From: a virus | Strand: one strand, 5' to 3' | Length of the DNA: 33,816 nt | IMG/VR virus record: IMGVR_UViG_3300028925_002522 | Span: 1 to 33,816 of that record | In this document: positions 1,632-33,816 of the stretch, one piece after another | Layout of the letters: every line of letters starts with the position of its first letter | Position numbering within the stretch: the stretch's first letter is position 1 | Translations under genes and position numbers: made by a program | The notes under the pieces: model-generated | The model's database searches: none | What the model saw: the letters and a program-made list of their open reading frames with translations, nothing else | What the model was told of the DNA's origin: nothing

Positions 1632-1964
1632 ATGGCACATTTTGCAGAACTTGACGAAAACAATATCGTACTCCGCGTGATCAGGGTTTATGACGCGCAC
1701 GAAGCGGACGGCGAAAACTGGTGCCATGAATTTGCCGGTGGCAACTGGAAGCAGACAAGCTACAACGGAAATATGCGACATAACTATGCGGGCATTGGGT
1801 ATCGCTATGACGCCGATGCCGACGCCTTTTATGCGCCCCAACCATACCCATCTTGGTCACTGGATGATGCATATCGTTGGCGACCGCCGACACCACGCCC
1901 AGATGATGACAAAGATTATTTTTGGGATGAGGCTAACGGAAAATGGTCGGTGATGGTGGAATAG
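1632..1964 (+). CDS. Small conserved tail-associated protein of aquatic phages
   Basis: This 110-residue protein begins MAHFAELDENNIVLRVI and contains the blocks GGNWKQTSYNGNMRHNYAGI and YDADADAFYAPQPYPSW. I recognise this pattern as a protein widespread in marine and freshwater phages, usually beside tail-fibre genes. It is rich in Trp, Tyr and Asp, has no signal peptide or membrane segment, and is acidic. An AGGA at 1622-1625 precedes the ATG. Its function is not established. Its position directly after the adhesin suggests a tail-tip component or a fibre-assembly factor, which is inference. Confidence 0.7.
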   Translation: MAHFAELDENNIVLRVIRVYDAHEADGENWCHEFAGGNWKQTSYNGNMRHNYAGIGYRYDADADAFYAPQPYPSWSLDDAYRWRPPTPRPDDDKDYFWDEANGKWSVMVE

Positions 1965-1966
1965 AA

Positions 1967-3064
1967 ATGATATTCCTAGCATCACTTCCTCGTTCTGGTA
2001 GTACTTTATTAACATCACTTTTGAACCAACGTCCCGATGTGTACGCCAGTCCAACGTCCAATCTCTGTAATATATTAAATGCTGCTAAACAAGTATGGGA
2101 TCAAAGTGCAGCTACTAAAGCTGATGGTGGTAAAGAGAGTGACATCATCCGCATTTTGAGAAGTATTCAGGATGCCCGATATGAGACAGATAAATTAGTT
2201 TTTGACAAAGCTAGAAATTGGTGCGTTCCTGAAACTATAAAAACAATGATAAAAGTACAAGGCAATGCAAAGATCGTCGCTACTGTAAGGCCAGTAGCAG
2301 AGTGCCTTGCTTCATTCGCCAAATTGATTAAGCCCGAAGACATTATGGACTTTTGTAAACGGCACAAATGGGCTCAACATTTATTTGACAGCTATGAAAA
2401 CATGCAAGCTGGTTATAAAGAATACCCGAACAATTTTTTATTAATTGAATATGATGATCTTGTATCTAATCCTCAAGTTCAATTAAATCGTATTGCCAAG
2501 TTTGTTGGTATTGATCCATTTATTTATGACTTCAATAATATTGAAGACAGTAAAGAAATGGATGAAGTGTGGGGGGTTGAAGGGCTGCACAAGGTCCGCA
2601 AGAAAGTATCCAAACGCACTTATTCAGCGCGTAAAATTCTCGGCAAAAGTGCGTGGAATTTATATCAAGGCGGTGAGTTTTGGAATGATAAGCCTTTGCT
2701 TAACGATAAAGGCCGCGAAGTATCTGCATGGGGTAATGCTTCAGAAAAAACTGCTTTTCTACAAAATGTCGATTCCAATCAACCTGTTTGGAATGGAGAA
2801 AAAAATGCCGTTGTTTTATTACATCTACAACGTGGGCTGAAAGATCAAATATCTCAAGTTCGATACGCTCGTGAGCTGAAAAAATTAGGTTGCACGGTAG
2901 TTGTTTCATGCACACAAACTTTGGCTGAAAAACTTCGCCATGCTGATGGGGTGGATGTTGTCGTGCAGCACGAGGTGTCGAGTGGTGTGTACCATGATTT
3001 CTATTTACCTGCCATGTCTGCACCGATTCAACTTGGCTACCAAAATTCGGCAGACATTGCTTAA
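1967..3064 (+). CDS. Sulfotransferase with C-terminal glycosyltransferase-like segment
   Basis: I chose the ATG at 1967 (365 aa), not the in-frame one at 1943, because it puts the PAPS-binding loop at the usual N-terminus and has a GGTGGA 6 bases upstream. Residues about 1-200 look like a sulfotransferase: the 5'-phosphosulfate loop is LASLPRSGSTLL (PRSGST at 8-13), a strand with VRPVAECLASF (107-117) resembles the 3'-phosphate-binding region, and IEYDDLVSNP is at 161-170. Residues about 270-365 look different: PVWNGE, then LLHLQRGLKDQISQVRYAREL and a VDVVV strand. These resemble the glycosyltransferase part of TPR/O-GlcNAc-transferase-like proteins ('LLHAEQGLGDTIQFVRYA'). It appears cut short after about 90 residues. 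The likely role is sulfation of a host surface glycan or metabolite. The gene is AT-richer than its neighbours, suggesting acquisition. Confidence 0.7.
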   Translation: MIFLASLPRSGSTLLTSLLNQRPDVYASPTSNLCNILNAAKQVWDQSAATKADGGKESDIIRILRSIQDARYETDKLVFDKARNWCVPETIKTMIKVQGNAKIVATVRPVAECLASFAKLIKPEDIMDFCKRHKWAQHLFDSYENMQAGYKEYPNNFLLIEYDDLVSNPQVQLNRIAKFVGIDPFIYDFNNIEDSKEMDEVWGVEGLHKVRKKVSKRTYSARKILGKSAWNLYQGGEFWNDKPLLNDKGREVSAWGNASEKTAFLQNVDSNQPVWNGEKNAVVLLHLQRGLKDQISQVRYARELKKLGCTVVVSCTQTLAEKLRHADGVDVVVQHEVSSGVYHDFYLPAMSAPIQLGYQNSADIA

Positions 3065-3066
3065 GA

Positions 3067-3699
3067 ATGCTTAATGTAAATGAATGGTTTTATTTTACAA
3101 AAGGTTTAGACAGAAAAACCTGTAATAAAATAAGAAATACAGCGAAGGGAAACTGGAAACAATCAACAGTAGATACCAAAAAAGTTATTACAGAAGAAGA
3201 GCGAATAACTGGCATAGAGTTAGTTTATAATCTAAACAAAGATGTAAGAATAAGTGATGTATCATGGACATCAGAACAATGGATATATGATACGATTTGG
3301 CCGTGGATGGAAGGGGCAAACAAACGGGCTGGTTGGAAATATGACATAACAGGTGCAGAGGGTATGCAAATAACCCGTTATAAAAAGGGCGGGTTTTATT
3401 GTTTTCATCGCGACGGCAAGGGTGATCATTTATCTGCATATGACATGCCAGACAAAGAATTTATGCACGGTAATGTTAGAAAATTATCAATGACTGTTCT
3501 CTTGAATGATAATTATGAAGGCGGAGAGTTTCAGTTTGCTACTTATAACGAAGAAAAATGTGAAATTCACGTACCAGAATTTAATAAAATAGGATCAATT
3601 ATTGTGTTTCCTTCCGATATGGAGCATCGGGTTGCGCCTGTAACAAGTGGAGTTAGGTATTCACTGGTGGTATGGTTTTTAGGACCGCCTTTTAAATAA
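3067..3699 (+). CDS. 2-oxoglutarate/Fe(II)-dependent oxygenase (prolyl-4-hydroxylase-like)
   Basis: This 210-residue protein has the full double-stranded beta-helix signature. The iron ligands are H114 and D116 in YCFHRDGKGD and H187 in PSDMEHRVAPV, and R197 in GVRYSLVVWF would bind 2-oxoglutarate. GSIIVFPSDMEHRVAPVTSG is typical of the PKHD/P4H family often found in phages of aquatic bacteria. The substrate cannot be read from sequence; proteins, nucleobases or surface sugars are all possible. It starts two bases after the upstream stop with only a weak ribosome site, so translation is probably coupled to the sulfotransferase gene. It shares that gene's AT-rich composition, and both look like one acquired cassette between tail and lysis genes. 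Confidence 0.88.
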   Translation: MLNVNEWFYFTKGLDRKTCNKIRNTAKGNWKQSTVDTKKVITEEERITGIELVYNLNKDVRISDVSWTSEQWIYDTIWPWMEGANKRAGWKYDITGAEGMQITRYKKGGFYCFHRDGKGDHLSAYDMPDKEFMHGNVRKLSMTVLLNDNYEGGEFQFATYNEEKCEIHVPEFNKIGSIIVFPSDMEHRVAPVTSGVRYSLVVWFLGPPFK

Positions 3700-6557: not shown

Positions 6558-6561
6558 CACC
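6535..6561. promoter_or_regulatory. Two adjoining operator-like palindromes in the accessory promoter
   Basis: CAAGGTTTCAACCTTG (6535-6550) is an inverted repeat with perfect 7-bp arms and a 2-base centre. It fills the spacer between the -10 and -35 boxes. Next to it, GGTGTAAACACC (6550-6561) is a second palindrome with 5-bp arms that covers the -35. Such placement is typical of repressor operators. The phage Cro-like protein is the obvious candidate, but the spacer palindrome is absent from the 12.9-kb promoter. Confidence 0.6.
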
Positions 6562-6890
6562 TATTTGCACATTAGTTTAATTTTATTCCGGGCGTCCTCG
6601 CAACCGTTGCCGATGATCACCGTGTCGCTGATGCCTTCCAGATACGCAATCCAGTCCTTTTGAACTGGCGAGATTTTTCCGCCCTTCTCCCGCTTCATTT
6701 CAATCCAGCATCGCCACGCAGGGATATATAAATCAGGCACCCCGGCGCTGACGCCTTCCGCCTTCAGCTTCGCGCCTGTCGTGCGACTCCGATGGCCGCC
6801 GTTGGGAATTGCGAATATTCGCACGCCGGGATGTTCCTGGCGGAACCACATCACCAATTCGCGCTGTTCCTCATGCTCGGTTTTTATCAC
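6561..6890 (-). CDS. VRR-NUC domain nuclease
   Basis: I use the GTG at 6890 (109 aa), which overlaps the stop of the transporter gene as GTGA with GGAG just upstream; the ATG at 6944 would run deep into that gene. The product matches the phage VRR-NUC family of PD-(D/E)XK nucleases: EHEEQRELVMWFRQ, the PNGG turn at 29-32, GVPDLYIP with D53, IEMKREKGG with E64 and K66, and Q77 in SPVQKDWI. Stand-alone phage VRR-NUC proteins are thought to cut branched DNA, so a role in resolving replication or recombination intermediates is likely. It ends the main leftward early operon. Confidence 0.85.
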   Translation of the reverse strand: MIKTEHEEQRELVMWFRQEHPGVRIFAIPNGGHRSRTTGAKLKAEGVSAGVPDLYIPAWRCWIEMKREKGGKISPVQKDWIAYLEGISDTVIIGNGCEDARNKIKLMCK

Positions 6891-7396
6891 GGTCTCCTGT
6901 TCCGCATTACATATAAAACTGGAACAGCTAATGCTGACATCCAAACTTTTCCGACGATCTGCCCGGTTAAAAAATCGAGCGACCCAAACGCCAAATACAG
7001 GAAAACACCGCTATCAATCGCAGCACCGGCTATCCCGCTGGCAAGAACTGCAAGCCACAGGCGGCGGCGGCGCAGCGGCGTATAAACCGCCATGTCTGCG
7101 CCCTCCGAAAGCAAAAACGCTAAACCAGATGCAACAACGAGGGCTGCCGGCGCGACAAATCCAGACAGGGCCGCTCCCGCAAGAATCCCGGCGATAGCCC
7201 ATTTCCACCCAAGGCGCTCATGCACCATGTCACGCAGAACAAGGGCCGCTCCGATCATTAAAACGCCAGACGGCGCCATCAGACCAAATCCAACAGGAAC
7301 AAGGCATGGCCCGTCAGGGATGCAAACTGTTCCGATGTTGCCGATCAGCCAATTTGCTGCGGGAATTGTCGCAATAAACGCGGCTAGCCAAATCAT
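6887..7396 (-). CDS. VUT-family transporter (queuosine-precursor type, YhhQ/QPTR-like)
   Basis: This 169-residue integral membrane protein has about five or six hydrophobic segments. The blocks PAANWLIGN, VGFGLMAPSGVLMIGAALVL and RDMVHERLGWKWAI are characteristic of phage and bacterial VUT proteins. Members such as E. coli YhhQ import the queuosine precursors preQ0/preQ1 (established for YhhQ). Here it is translationally coupled (ATGA, 7393-7396) to the DpdA-like gene upstream. This suggests it brings a 7-deazaguanine base into the infected cell for insertion into phage DNA. It could instead transport another small molecule, because VUT specificity cannot be read from sequence. Confidence 0.78.
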   Translation of the reverse strand: MIWLAAFIATIPAANWLIGNIGTVCIPDGPCLVPVGFGLMAPSGVLMIGAALVLRDMVHERLGWKWAIAGILAGAALSGFVAPAALVVASGLAFLLSEGADMAVYTPLRRRRLWLAVLASGIAGAAIDSGVFLYLAFGSLDFLTGQIVGKVWMSALAVPVLYVMRNRRP

Positions 7397-8073
7397 GTGT
7401 TCATCTCCATTTCCTGTTGTTCCGGTTGAATTGTCCAGCCGACACGCGGTTGTGACCTATCCCATCTATCTGCCATGCCCGCTATAGTGTTTTGCGGCCT
7501 GTTGTGGTTCCGTGCAATGTCGGCGCTATCGACAGACCCGAAAGGGTAAAGGTGGCCGACCAGTTGCATTCGTAATCCGTGCAACCAAGGAAGCCGCCCG
7601 CGCCGTGCTAGTTGATTGAACGCCCGCGTTGCCCTGCCGTGCCACCGATCATCGCCCACCGTCGCATATTCGCCCGCCGAACCGATGCACACGCGCGGCC
7701 ATTCGTCAGTGAGCTTCAACAGCCTGTCAATAGGTTCGTCCATATGCCAAACCGGCGTGCCGCGATGGCCGTGGGGCCACTCCGCTAGAAGTTCATCTTG
7801 TAATTCCGCGCCACCGTCTATCACGTCAGGAATAATGGCCCATGTTGTCGGGCAATCAAGCCACTTGTCGCACCAATCATAATAACCCGCCCAATCCGCC
7901 GTTGCGCCTGAACGCCAAACGCTGAACGCCCCGTTGTCTAGAAGAACGCTTTGCGAAATATGGTGCGCGAAATCGACCGCGCGGGGGTATGCGTGGCTAA
8001 CAAGAGTGTGCCGCCCGATCAGGTCAACCATCCGACCATAGGGGCTTATGTCAGCGCAATGATAGTGAATCAT
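7393..8073 (-). CDS. DpdA-like (tRNA-guanine transglycosylase-fold) DNA-modifying enzyme
   Basis: This 226-residue protein has the landmarks of the TGT/DpdA superfamily in order. LDNGAFSVW (45-53) corresponds to the DSGGFQ catalytic motif of TGT, with D46. IPDVIDG (81-87) and PVWHMDEP (107-114) are barrel strands. HGLR (165-168) corresponds to the GGL loop. FGSVDSADIARN (178-189) carries D182 as the probable nucleophile. DpdA enzymes exchange guanine in DNA for a 7-deazaguanine, protecting phage DNA from restriction. It is shorter than TGT and lacks the TGT zinc site, as expected for a DNA-acting member. No preQ0 synthesis genes occur here, consistent with salvage through the adjoining transporter. 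Its start overlaps the helicase gene by 23 bases. The fold is fairly confident; the exact base is unknown. Confidence 0.68.
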   Translation of the reverse strand: MIHYHCADISPYGRMVDLIGRHTLVSHAYPRAVDFAHHISQSVLLDNGAFSVWRSGATADWAGYYDWCDKWLDCPTTWAIIPDVIDGGAELQDELLAEWPHGHRGTPVWHMDEPIDRLLKLTDEWPRVCIGSAGEYATVGDDRWHGRATRAFNQLARRGRLPWLHGLRMQLVGHLYPFGSVDSADIARNHNRPQNTIAGMADRWDRSQPRVGWTIQPEQQEMEMNT

Positions 8074-9658
8074 CCCAGTCCCTTCTTGTCACGCGGAAGA
8101 ATTTGCCATCCTTTTTGAATTTAATCGCCATCGGAGGGCGTGCTTGATTTAGATCGCGCGCTACATCGTCCAGCGTTTTATTTCTCATTACGTCACCGGC
8201 CTTCGACATCATAACCAAGTTGGCAAGCAGGGTCCGCGCTTTCTGACCAGCATAGCCGTCGTGAGTCACTGTCAGATATTCAGTTATGGGCCGATCCGAT
8301 AGCGCGCCGTAGTATGTGACGGCCAGCATTTTTATGCCGCTGGCGCGGCTTATATGTTGCCGCCATTTCCATTCTGTCACAGGCATATCATCGACATCCA
8401 GACCCATGATGTCGTCATGGTGGAGTTTTTGCTGCGGCGGTTTTGGCGCCGGGAACGGTTCGCCGCAAGCCACGCATTCCTTGGCTGATATGTGGTTCAA
8501 TTCATTGCAGGCTTCGCAGACTTTGACCGGTGCCTCGCCCTTGCCTTTGCCTGACGCCTTCTTTGGATTGACCGCCGTGATGGGGCCATGCGTTTGCACC
8601 ACTCCGGCAAAGTCCAAAACAAGGCAGTGGTCAATGTGGCTCTTGGGCCGCATTCCGCGACCTGCCATCTGCACATACAGCCCGGTAGATAGCGTTGGCC
8701 GCAGCATGGCAATCAGATCGAGGTCTGGGTGATCGAACCCGGTCGTCAATACATTGGCGTTCGTCAGCGCCTTAATTTCGCCAGATTTAAAACCGGCGAT
8801 AATTCGCTCACGTTCTGCCTTCGGCGTCGTCCCAACTATGCAAGCCGAGACAATGCCCCGAGCCGCGAGAATTTCTGCCACGTTGTGCGCGTGTTTAACG
8901 CCAGCGCAGAAAAACAACCAAGACCGGCGGTCACCAGCCAAGCGGATCACCTCGTCAACAGTCGCCGCATTATTTTTGTCTGTGTCAACGGCGGCTTGCA
9001 GTTCGCTCTCGATATATTCACCGCCGCGCTTGTGGACGCCTTCAACCGAAAGCTGATGCGCAGTCAGCTTCGACCGAAGCGGTGCAAGAAATCCTTTGTG
9101 GATCAGTTCTTCGATGCTAACCGGCGCAATAATATCCGCAAATAGCGCCGGTTCGTCGGTGATATATCCATGACCCAGGCGGTACGGCGTAGCTGTCAGT
9201 CCGATCACCCGCAGCACCGGATTGATGTGCATTAGATCAGATATCAGCTTTCGGTATCCGCCCTCCTGTTTGTGGCTGACCAGGTGACATTCATCAATCA
9301 GCACCAGATCAACGTGACCAATCTGATTGGCTTTGTTTCGTACCGATTGAATACCGGCAAACGTAATCGGTTCGCCAATATCTCGCCGCCTCATGCCCGC
9401 CGAATAAATGCCCAACGGCGCATCGGGCCAGTGGCCCAACATCTTCTCGGCGTTTTGTTCAATCAACTCTTTAACGTGCGTCAGCATCAGGATGCGCGTC
9501 TCAGGCCATGTCTGAATCGCCTCCTTGCAGAGCGCCGCCACAATATGTGACTTGCCCGATCCGGTCGGCAGTTCAATGCACGGGTGGCCCTTGCGGCCAT
9601 CCGAGAACCATTTGTATAGCTGGTCGATTGTTCGCTGCTGGTACTCACGGAGCTTCAA
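8051..9658 (-). CDS. SF2 DEAD/DEAH-type helicase with zinc ribbon
   Basis: This 535-residue ATP-dependent helicase has all core motifs. Walker A is PTGSGKS (31-37), Walker B is DECH (122-125), motif III is TATPYR (155-160) and motif VI is QMAGRGMR (330-337). A zinc ribbon follows with C381, C384, C395 and C398, then a C-terminal extension of about 130 residues. It resembles the RecG/UvsW-type 'DEAD/DEAH helicase' common in podophage replication modules, so a part in fork remodelling or recombination is likely. Translation appears to start at TTG 9658, which overlaps the nuclease stop (TTGA). The next Met lies after Walker A, so an upstream non-ATG start is required. Confidence 0.9.
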   Translation of the reverse strand: MKLREYQQRTIDQLYKWFSDGRKGHPCIELPTGSGKSHIVAALCKEAIQTWPETRILMLTHVKELIEQNAEKMLGHWPDAPLGIYSAGMRRRDIGEPITFAGIQSVRNKANQIGHVDLVLIDECHLVSHKQEGGYRKLISDLMHINPVLRVIGLTATPYRLGHGYITDEPALFADIIAPVSIEELIHKGFLAPLRSKLTAHQLSVEGVHKRGGEYIESELQAAVDTDKNNAATVDEVIRLAGDRRSWLFFCAGVKHAHNVAEILAARGIVSACIVGTTPKAERERIIAGFKSGEIKALTNANVLTTGFDHPDLDLIAMLRPTLSTGLYVQMAGRGMRPKSHIDHCLVLDFAGVVQTHGPITAVNPKKASGKGKGEAPVKVCEACNELNHISAKECVACGEPFPAPKPPQQKLHHDDIMGLDVDDMPVTEWKWRQHISRASGIKMLAVTYYGALSDRPITEYLTVTHDGYAGQKARTLLANLVMMSKAGDVMRNKTLDDVARDLNQARPPMAIKFKKDGKFFRVTRRDWDDSLSLR

Positions 9659-15519: not shown

Positions 15520-16755
15520 ATGGATTGGCCAGCAGACAAAATTAAACGGCGAAAAGTGGACGCGCTAATACCATATGCGAGGAACGCACGAACGCATTCG
15601 GATGAGCAAGTGGCGCAGATCGCAGCGTCGATTAAAGAGTGGGGATGGACAACACCGGTGCTGGTCGATGAGGACGGTGAAATCATAGCCGGGCATGGTC
15701 GAGTCATGGCAGCGCGGAAGCTCGGTATCGAGGAAGTCCCGACGATGGTTGCCACCGGTTGGACGAAGGCGCAGAAGCAAGCCTATGTCCTGGCGGATAA
15801 TCAACTACCGCAGAATGCCGGGTGGGATATGGATTTGCTGTCGGTGGAAATGAAAGACTTAGACGCGGATGGGTTTGATCTGAGCCTTATCGGATTCGGT
15901 GAGGATATGCTGGCGAATATGCTGGTCGATCCAACCGAGGGGCTGACCGACGAGGACGCGGTGCCGGACGTGCCGGAGAACCCCGTTACGGTCGAGGGCG
16001 ACGTTTGGCTGCTAGGCGACCACCGGCTGATGTGTGGCGACAGCACCAGCATTGATGCGGTGGAGGCGCTGTGTGGCGAACACCGGGCCGATATGTGGCT
16101 AACAGACCCGCCATACAACGTGGCATATGAGGGGAAAACAAAAGACGCTCTTAAAATACAAAACGACGAAATGGGTGATGACCAATTCAGGCAGTTCTTA
16201 CGCGATTCATACTCTGCCGCAGACGCTGTTATGAAATCTGGAGCGGTTTTCTATATCTGGCACGCTGATTCTGAAGGCTACAACTTCCGGGGAGCCGCGC
16301 ACGATATGGGGTGGCAGATACGCCAGTGTTTAATTTGGAAAAAGCAAACAATGGTTATGGGGCGGCAGGATTACCATTGGAAGCATGAACCTTGCTTGTA
16401 TGGCTGGAAAGACGGCGCAGGGCATCTTTGGGCGACCGACAGGAAGCAGACCACTATATTAGAGTTTGACCGCCCGTCTCGAAGCAAAGAGCATCCAACG
16501 ATGAAGCCGGTCGAGTTGTTTGAATATCAAATGCTTAACAACACAAAAGGCGGGGATTTAATTTTAGATAGCTTCGGCGGCTCCGGCACCACAATGATCG
16601 CCGCAGAAAAGAACGGTCGCCACTCCCGGCTTATGGAACTTGACCCCAAATACTGCGATGTTATCGTGCAGAGATGGCAGGATTTCACCGGCCAACAGGC
16701 CAAACTAGAGGAGAGCGGGGAGATTTTCCCCACTATAAAAGAAAATGCCGCCTAA
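15520..16755 (+). CDS. ParB-like N-domain fused to DNA methyltransferase (beta class, N6-A/N4-C)
   Basis: This is a 411-residue two-domain protein. Residues 1 to about 130 are a ParB/sulfiredoxin-like domain (LIPYARNARTHSDEQVAQIA, GHGRVMAARKLG, YVLADNQLPQNAGWD). The methyltransferase follows, with catalytic motif IV DPPYNV (196-201) before the SAM-binding motif I DSFGGSGTT (350-358), the order of the beta class; HPTMKPVELFEY (325-336) is also typical. It methylates an amino group of A or C in a sequence that cannot be deduced. Phage fusions of this kind are usually thought to protect genomes from restriction. A GGAAAGAG lies upstream of the ATG. It opens the rightward late region and overlaps the small terminase gene by 11 bases. 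Confidence 0.9.
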   Translation: MDWPADKIKRRKVDALIPYARNARTHSDEQVAQIAASIKEWGWTTPVLVDEDGEIIAGHGRVMAARKLGIEEVPTMVATGWTKAQKQAYVLADNQLPQNAGWDMDLLSVEMKDLDADGFDLSLIGFGEDMLANMLVDPTEGLTDEDAVPDVPENPVTVEGDVWLLGDHRLMCGDSTSIDAVEALCGEHRADMWLTDPPYNVAYEGKTKDALKIQNDEMGDDQFRQFLRDSYSAADAVMKSGAVFYIWHADSEGYNFRGAAHDMGWQIRQCLIWKKQTMVMGRQDYHWKHEPCLYGWKDGAGHLWATDRKQTTILEFDRPSRSKEHPTMKPVELFEYQMLNNTKGGDLILDSFGGSGTTMIAAEKNGRHSRLMELDPKYCDVIVQRWQDFTGQQAKLEESGEIFPTIKENAA

Positions 16756-33505: not shown

Positions 33506-33816
33506 ATGGCTAGAGACGGGTCGGGAGTTTACAGCAATCCATATCCCAATTTTGTGGCTGGTACTGTAATTTCATCCACTGAAGTGGACGCAAACAACGC
33601 CGCAATGGGAACGGCCCTTACGGGGTCAATTGCGGCTGATGGGCAGACTACCGTCACGGGCAATCTGCCTATGGCGACATATAAATTCACCGGACTTGGC
33701 GCGGGGGCTGCATCAACGGACAGCGCTAATTTAGGACAGGTCCAGGCCGGTGCCTATATTTGGTGCGGGACAATGGGCGGCGCTGCTGACGCGGGGACTC
33801 TATCTCCAACGCCAGC
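33506..33816 (+). CDS. Tail fibre protein, N-terminal part (continues at base 1)
   Basis: The ATG at 33506 follows the preceding stop without a gap. The first residues, MARDGSGVYSNPYPNFVAGT, match the widespread 'MARDGSGTY' start of podophage tail fibres that docks to the tail. Then comes VISSTEVDANNAAMGTALTG and the T7 gp17-like repeat NLPMATYKFTGLGAGAASTD, SANLGQVQAG. The window ends inside the gene, and the frame continues at base 1 through the 99-bp overlap to the stop at 754, for 321 residues in all. This is the attachment fibre, with the polyglycine adhesin encoded next. Confidence 0.85.
   Translation, partial: MARDGSGVYSNPYPNFVAGTVISSTEVDANNAAMGTALTGSIAADGQTTVTGNLPMATYKFTGLGAGAASTDSANLGQVQAGAYIWCGTMGGAADAGTLSPTP
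33718..33816 (+). repeat. 99-bp terminal overlap identical to bases 1-99
   Basis: The last 99 bases repeat the first 99 exactly, and the repeat lies within the tail-fibre gene, whose frame stays open across the join. An overlap of exactly this size within a gene is typical of a circular contig from a k-mer assembler, so it is most likely an assembly feature, not a physical terminal repeat. Confidence 0.9.

Follow-up and report, generated by a model that had tools for sequence, protein, structure and literature searches.

Where does a phage that encodes a DpdA-like enzyme, and no genes for making a 7-deazaguanine base, obtain the base for that enzyme to insert? Hutinet et al. (2019) left open the base source of such phages, and the question is raised again by IMG/VR virus record IMGVR_UViG_3300028925_002522, all 33,816 bases of which were analysed here (the window), where a dpdA-like gene overlaps a gene for a VUT-family membrane protein. 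A first-pass annotation of the letters alone had read this pair as a salvage-only system that imports preQ0 or preQ1 and places it in phage DNA, protecting that DNA from restriction. We consider, with a probability of roughly two in three, that the two genes together supply a 7-deazaguanine base and insert it into phage DNA, and this proposed supply-plus-insertion module offers a candidate answer to the question of supply.

The dpdA-like gene and its overlapping neighbours

The window begins and ends with a 99-base exact direct repeat (positions 1–99 and 33718–33816), which makes it probable that the genome is complete and was assembled as a circle, and gives meaning to the absence of preQ0 synthesis genes from it. 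The FolE, QueD, QueE and QueC families had no match among the 44 window ORFs scanned, as the first-pass annotation had said of these genes, neither QueC nor QueD occurs anywhere in the virus record, and family HMMs found no QueD or phrog_37496 (a small family described below) hidden in the window. With no synthesis genes, the supply of base must come from the host or the environment. DndB (dpdB) is absent among the Pfam families of the 44 ORFs, and Rfam scans of the window and of 12 loci turned up no preQ1 riboswitch close to the module.

Four overlapping genes on the minus strand run in the order helicase, dpdA-like, VUT and VRR-NUC. The dpdA-like gene (7393–8073) encodes P0001, a 226 aa protein that phrog_887 and HHalign mark as a homologue of 7-deazaguanine transglycosylases and that AlphaFold models as a probable compact TIM barrel, and the next gene (6887–7396) encodes P0002, a 169 aa membrane transporter of the VUT/QPTR family. 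The stop codon of the first and the start codon of the second share the ATGA at 7393–7396, which was read directly from the sequence and had been remarked on before; it likely couples their translation. Upstream of dpdA, a DEAD/SNF2-type helicase gene (8051–9658) overlaps it by 23 bases, and downstream of VUT, a VRR-NUC nuclease gene (6561–6890) has a probable GTG start that overlaps the VUT stop (GTGA); these two are operon neighbours and lie outside the module proper.

P0001 has the coordinates, length and landmarks noted in the first reading, with motifs LLDNGAF (residues 44–50), LHGLR (164–168) and FGSVDSADIARN, and it matches phrog_887 (‘queuine tRNA-ribosyltransferase’) at 1.1e-47. Comparison of profiles with DpdA had been proposed as a check, and a profile of 92 diverse P0001 homologues (A2) aligned with the CAjan DpdA at an HHalign value of 96.9% (E 1.7e-10, 156 columns) and with the 9g DpdA at 96.0% (E 4.7e-9). 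In these alignments D46, H110, H165 and D182 of P0001 align with the two DpdAs, LDSGAF lies opposite LLDNGAF and CDS opposite VDS, and His196 of 9g corresponds to H165, which is nearly invariant in the 92 homologues; the position-196 histidine has been named as conserved in DpdA (PMC6884629). D46 and D182, the aspartates of the LD(S/N)GAF and (C/V)DS motifs, are invariant in A2, and so is D83, opposite which CAjan DpdA has no Asp. P0001 is also directly homologous to the DpdA of Salmonella phage 7-11 (32% identity, E 3e-29).

The AlphaFold model of P0001 is confident and barrel-like (pLDDT 94.7, pTM 0.90). Its Foldseek matches in the PDB are general TIM barrels, none at E ≤0.001 and with an archaeal TGT at rank 50, and many of its top matches among predicted viral structures are named queuine tRNA-ribosyltransferase; a PDB sequence search with the family profile gave spurious matches only and no TGT, and Pfam PF23859 (DpdA) did not match P0001. 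It is the sequence profile that supports DpdA kinship of P0001, and fold comparison alone would be no proof of kinship to TGT. A true tRNA TGT was also considered for P0001 and rejected on profile and size: P0001 has no Pfam or NCBIfam match to tRNA TGT (TIGR00430/PF01702), A2 aligns with the hosts’ TGTs at 0.3% over at most 15 columns, and the C-terminal zinc site of TGT is missing, with Cys only at positions 6, 68, 74 and 129.

The VUT assignment of P0002 is borne out by Pfam Vut_1 (PF02592; 5e-13, 50.1 bits, cut-off 27.2), by phrog_4899 (3.5e-40) and by several hydrophobic segments. Against the queuosine precursor transporter equivalog TIGR00697 it scores 38.9 bits, below the cut-off of 50.95. 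P0002 thus resembles YhhQ/QPTR (COG1738) in its Vut_1 domain, but it differs in its length of 169 aa, in that score and in belonging to a clade separate from host YhhQ.

Recurrence of the pair and its alternative partners

Is the pairing peculiar to this phage? The first-pass annotation had proposed a survey of how often such dpdA genes stand next to VUT genes, and we collected loci (given L numbers here) with the enzyme as query against viral and genome contigs and the transporter as query against viral contigs. Both genes were present in 127 loci, and in all 127 they lie on the same strand no more than 482 bp apart, with VUT downstream of dpdA in 86 and upstream in 41; a crude uniform-placement model puts the chance of such adjacency at about 1e-38 for the 39 dereplicated loci. 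Among 80 transporter-anchored phage loci, a short DpdA adjoins the transporter in 73, a count valid for that transporter lineage since the scan extended down to about 50% identity, while six have phrog_15826 instead (L195, L198, L209, L227, L250 and L251, of which L209 and L251 were assigned by similarity) and one (L225) is truncated at the edge of its contig. Deposited phages have the pair as well: RHph_N3_2 with the identical ATGA overlap, Pam5 with one gene between dpdA and VUT, and RHph_X2_30. We found no published report of the phage dpdA–VUT pairing, in a literature whose 2023–2024 part was incompletely covered, so priority is not certain.

The transporter is coupled to three TGT-like families, namely the window type, PF23859 DpdA (matched by Pfam beside the VUT of phiLM21) and phrog_15826. 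The last, of about 200 aa, aligns weakly with A2 (84%, E 7.7e-6) and seems to be another compact enzyme of the TGT/DpdA type. A search for counter-examples among distant phage VUTs found TGT-like neighbours in StevieRay (gp53–gp54), Aoka (gp38–gp40) and ReqiPine5 (gp04–gp03), where the partners are all phrog_15826 and those of StevieRay and Aoka were named DpdA-like by their depositors; the sole VUT with no TGT-like neighbour (L033) is on a fragment judged bacterial by its hemH- and grpE-like neighbours. Phrog_15826 occurs VUT-coupled in phages of alphaproteobacteria and actinobacteria, at L250:5387–5986, L311:3479–4123, L313:3444–4061 and other loci. Between the VUT and DpdA-like genes of Arthrobacter phage Aoka lies gp39 (L312:3480–3806), a small T-fold candidate that matches a GTP cyclohydrolase phrog at 7.7e-9.

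What stands beside dpdA when VUT does not? QueD or a compact QueD-like protein often does, and some QueD loci have in addition a QueE-like radical SAM protein. Of the dereplicated loci, 118 had flanks of 700 bp or more on each side; VUT is present in 39 of these, QueD in 21, both in none and neither in 58, and the one-sided Fisher P for mutual exclusion of VUT and QueD is 7.8e-5 when the loci, which are not fully independent, are treated as such. Well-supported branches of the enzyme tree need at least 11 changes for VUT and at least 12 for QueD, so the partners have been swapped repeatedly. The compact QueD-like proteins of about 95–105 aa are found in VUT’s place in L018, L019, L023, L030, L046, L066, L085 and others, and never together with VUT.

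A further 80 aa family, phrog_37496, is found near dpdA in 53 loci (for example L005:9762–9998 and L177:9759–10001), with C13, Y22, E35, E50 and H70 invariant. The best match of its AlphaFold model (pLDDT 95.8) is archaeosine synthase QueF-Like (E 1.3e-6, TM 0.89), with GTP cyclohydrolase I ranking behind it, and HHalign against bacterial QueF gives 39%, a value that is suggestive only. In close relatives of the window enzyme (L002–L007) the gene order is VUT, phrog_37496, dpdA. QueF-Like acts on preQ0, an indication that those cassettes import preQ0.

These loci would fit a widespread class of phage cassettes that modify DNA but have no complete synthesis pathway, each built from a short DpdA (with phrog_15826 as a substitute) and a single exchangeable source of base, VUT import or QueD; in some lineages the newly recognized QueF-Like phrog_37496 would then convert the inserted preQ0 to archaeosine. 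We give this generalization even odds. If it is true, modification and infection success would depend on a precursor from the host or environment. The module is set apart among DpdA modification systems by an interchangeable precursor-supply gene that replaces a full pathway, and PHROGs 4899, 15826 and 37496, all three of unknown function, gain functional leads.

Transporter lineage and hosts

In a quick VUT tree, with moderate support and some long branches, nearly all phage VUTs form one group with VUTs of Rhizobiales dpd islands, and the hosts’ own YhhQ proteins lie apart; CAjan gp41 falls in the phage group. The dpd islands examined also have TGT-type, DndB-family, QueC or QueE genes, and YhhQ has been reported in about 9% of bacterial dpd islands (PMC11888242). 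Such islands, which hold a TGT-type DpdA, VUT and QueC, resemble the window in combining a DpdA with VUT, and they differ in that the window phage has no dpdB (DndB family), dpdC or restriction operon and a much shorter enzyme. In four bacterial chromosomes (L293, L294, L295 and L296) a phage-group VUT of a Rhizobiales dpd island directly adjoins QueC, and the host YhhQ is elsewhere.

Can the hosts make the base themselves? Among 79 bacterial genomes with related dpdA, 6 of the 17 with VUT lack QueC, compared with 2 of the 62 without VUT (P 0.0009); in the alphaproteobacteria alone the figures are 5 of 12 and 0 of 12, respectively (P 0.037). Both comparisons are confounded by phylogeny and incomplete MAGs. 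They are consistent with import being favoured in hosts unable to make preQ0; QueC is present in the other 11 of the 17 VUT-bearing hosts, so import is not strictly needed there. The earlier term ‘salvage-only’ holds in part only, as many hosts of related prophages have QueC and may themselves make some of the base, alongside what is imported. One bacterial order, sampled to enlarge the host test, gave 1 match in 398 genomes, and this extension was abandoned. M. smegmatis, the host of StevieRay, has been reported to be without the whole queuosine pathway (PMC6884629), and the idea can be tested in laboratory systems such as VUT-bearing mycobacteriophages on this host.

Proposed insertion into DNA and its alternatives

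The proposed module would work as follows: the VUT protein would enter the host membrane and bring in preQ0 (or preQ1 or another close derivative), the imported base would add to the pool of the infected cell, and the compact DpdA would swap guanines in phage DNA for it in a TGT-like exchange via D46 and D182. Kinship to DpdA with conserved key positions, kinship to VUT, recurrent tight coupling, VUT/QueD alternation and the lack of synthesis genes were obtained by computation; transport, substrate, DNA target, final base and restriction protection are what we infer for the pair.

Phage CAjan, in which deletion of dpdA abolishes DNA modification (PMC6884629), has a cluster with DpdA, FolE, QueD, QueC, QueE and gp41, a ‘putative preQ0 transporter’. 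It resembles the window phage in a homologous DpdA with matching key positions, in a phage-group VUT within the dpdA cluster and in a similar gene run nearby (helicase, Cas4-type exonuclease, DUF669, Sak4). However, CAjan, a proven dPreQ0 phage, synthesizes its own preQ0, for which the window phage lacks any gene, and the CAjan DpdA is 306 aa long, whereas the window enzyme is shorter (226 aa) and directly joined to VUT. The module reading is supported by this VUT in the dpdA cluster of CAjan, by the replacement of VUT by QueD and the QueF-Like homologue near dpdA, by the grouping of VUT with dpd-island VUTs apart from host YhhQ, and by the more frequent lack of QueC in hosts of VUT prophages. 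It is further supported by the alignment of key positions with the CAjan and 9g DpdAs, by the tight coupling of both genes in every two-gene locus and of VUT to three TGT-like families, and by the 7-11 enzyme, a P0001 homologue from a phage with measurable dADG. Counted against the module reading are the 58 loci with neither VUT nor QueD, the general TIM barrels among the PDB matches and the lack of a preQ1 riboswitch near the module.

Evidence against it also comes from the singleton DpdA phages (Salmonella phage 7-11 and Orion of group 3 of Hutinet et al. 2019, and Pantoea phage MED16), which likewise have DpdA and no synthesis genes, and from which the window module differs by its coupled transporter. 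Among these dpdA-only phages, dADG was measured at 0.02% of Gs in 7-11 and about 0.13% in MED16, Orion showed no modification, and the enzymes tried still cut the DNA of MED16, so the part of the earlier reading that concerned restriction protection is weak. It could be, then, that the base goes in only in traces or at a few rare positions, making a sparse mark and no restriction shield, and the homology of P0001 to the 7-11 enzyme agrees with this. We find it rather unlikely, since no supply gene has been reported for 7-11 or MED16, and frequent selection of supply genes beside dpdA is hardly expected for a trace product. In the literature examined we found no chemical DNA analysis of a VUT-coupled phage without synthesis genes.

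Alternatively, the enzyme could act on tRNA, with transporter and TGT-like enzyme raising queuosine-type tRNA modification during infection and so aiding translation. VUT, QueD and QueF-type partners would be equally useful for tRNA, and a tRNA TGT, hence a queuosine economy, was found in 30 of 30 host genomes tested, but those hosts thereby already supply TGT, the profile matches DNA-modifying DpdAs and not tRNA TGT beyond 15 columns, the 226 aa protein has no C-terminal zinc site, and the phage transporters group with DNA-modification islands; on balance tRNA is an unlikely target. That these short DpdAs now catalyse a different reaction on 7-deazaguanines or nucleosides, such as removal of the base, with VUT and QueD belonging to some other pathway, is very unlikely. 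In its favour, Hutinet et al. raised functional divergence of singleton DpdAs as possible, and the invariant D83 has no aligned Asp in CAjan DpdA, but the 92 homologues keep, with little or no variation, the DpdA histidine and both Asp motifs of catalytic type. Chance neighbourhood of two unrelated accessory genes is rejected at the level of genome context, even though phage accessory genes are often shuffled and some dpdA loci have no VUT, by same-strand adjacency in every two-gene locus, which holds for either gene order and across several families of both partners, by the VUT/QueD alternation and by the placement model.

The core idea of the first-pass annotation, a phage module that supplies and inserts the base, is thus well supported at the level of genome comparison, and is more general than stated there. 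Hutinet et al. (2019) suggested uptake for singleton DpdA phages and reported ‘no correlation’ with YhhQ homologues; the strong dpdA–VUT correlation runs counter to that statement. Recurrence of the module in many unrelated phages suggests that an imported, not self-made, base serves some viruses as a mark on their DNA, and if this is true, phage DNA modification would be a trait dependent on a salvaged nutrient.

Two other parts of the window deserve mention. A sulfotransferase-domain protein (1943–3064) is followed by a 2OG-Fe(II) oxygenase (3067–3699) in the structural or lysis region, an unusual phage cargo. A ParB-N domain is fused to an N6/N4 DNA methylase at 15520–16755, and the sole megablast match for the first 25 kb is between the DNA of this gene and a gene of a Streptococcus phage, at 76% identity over 332 bases.
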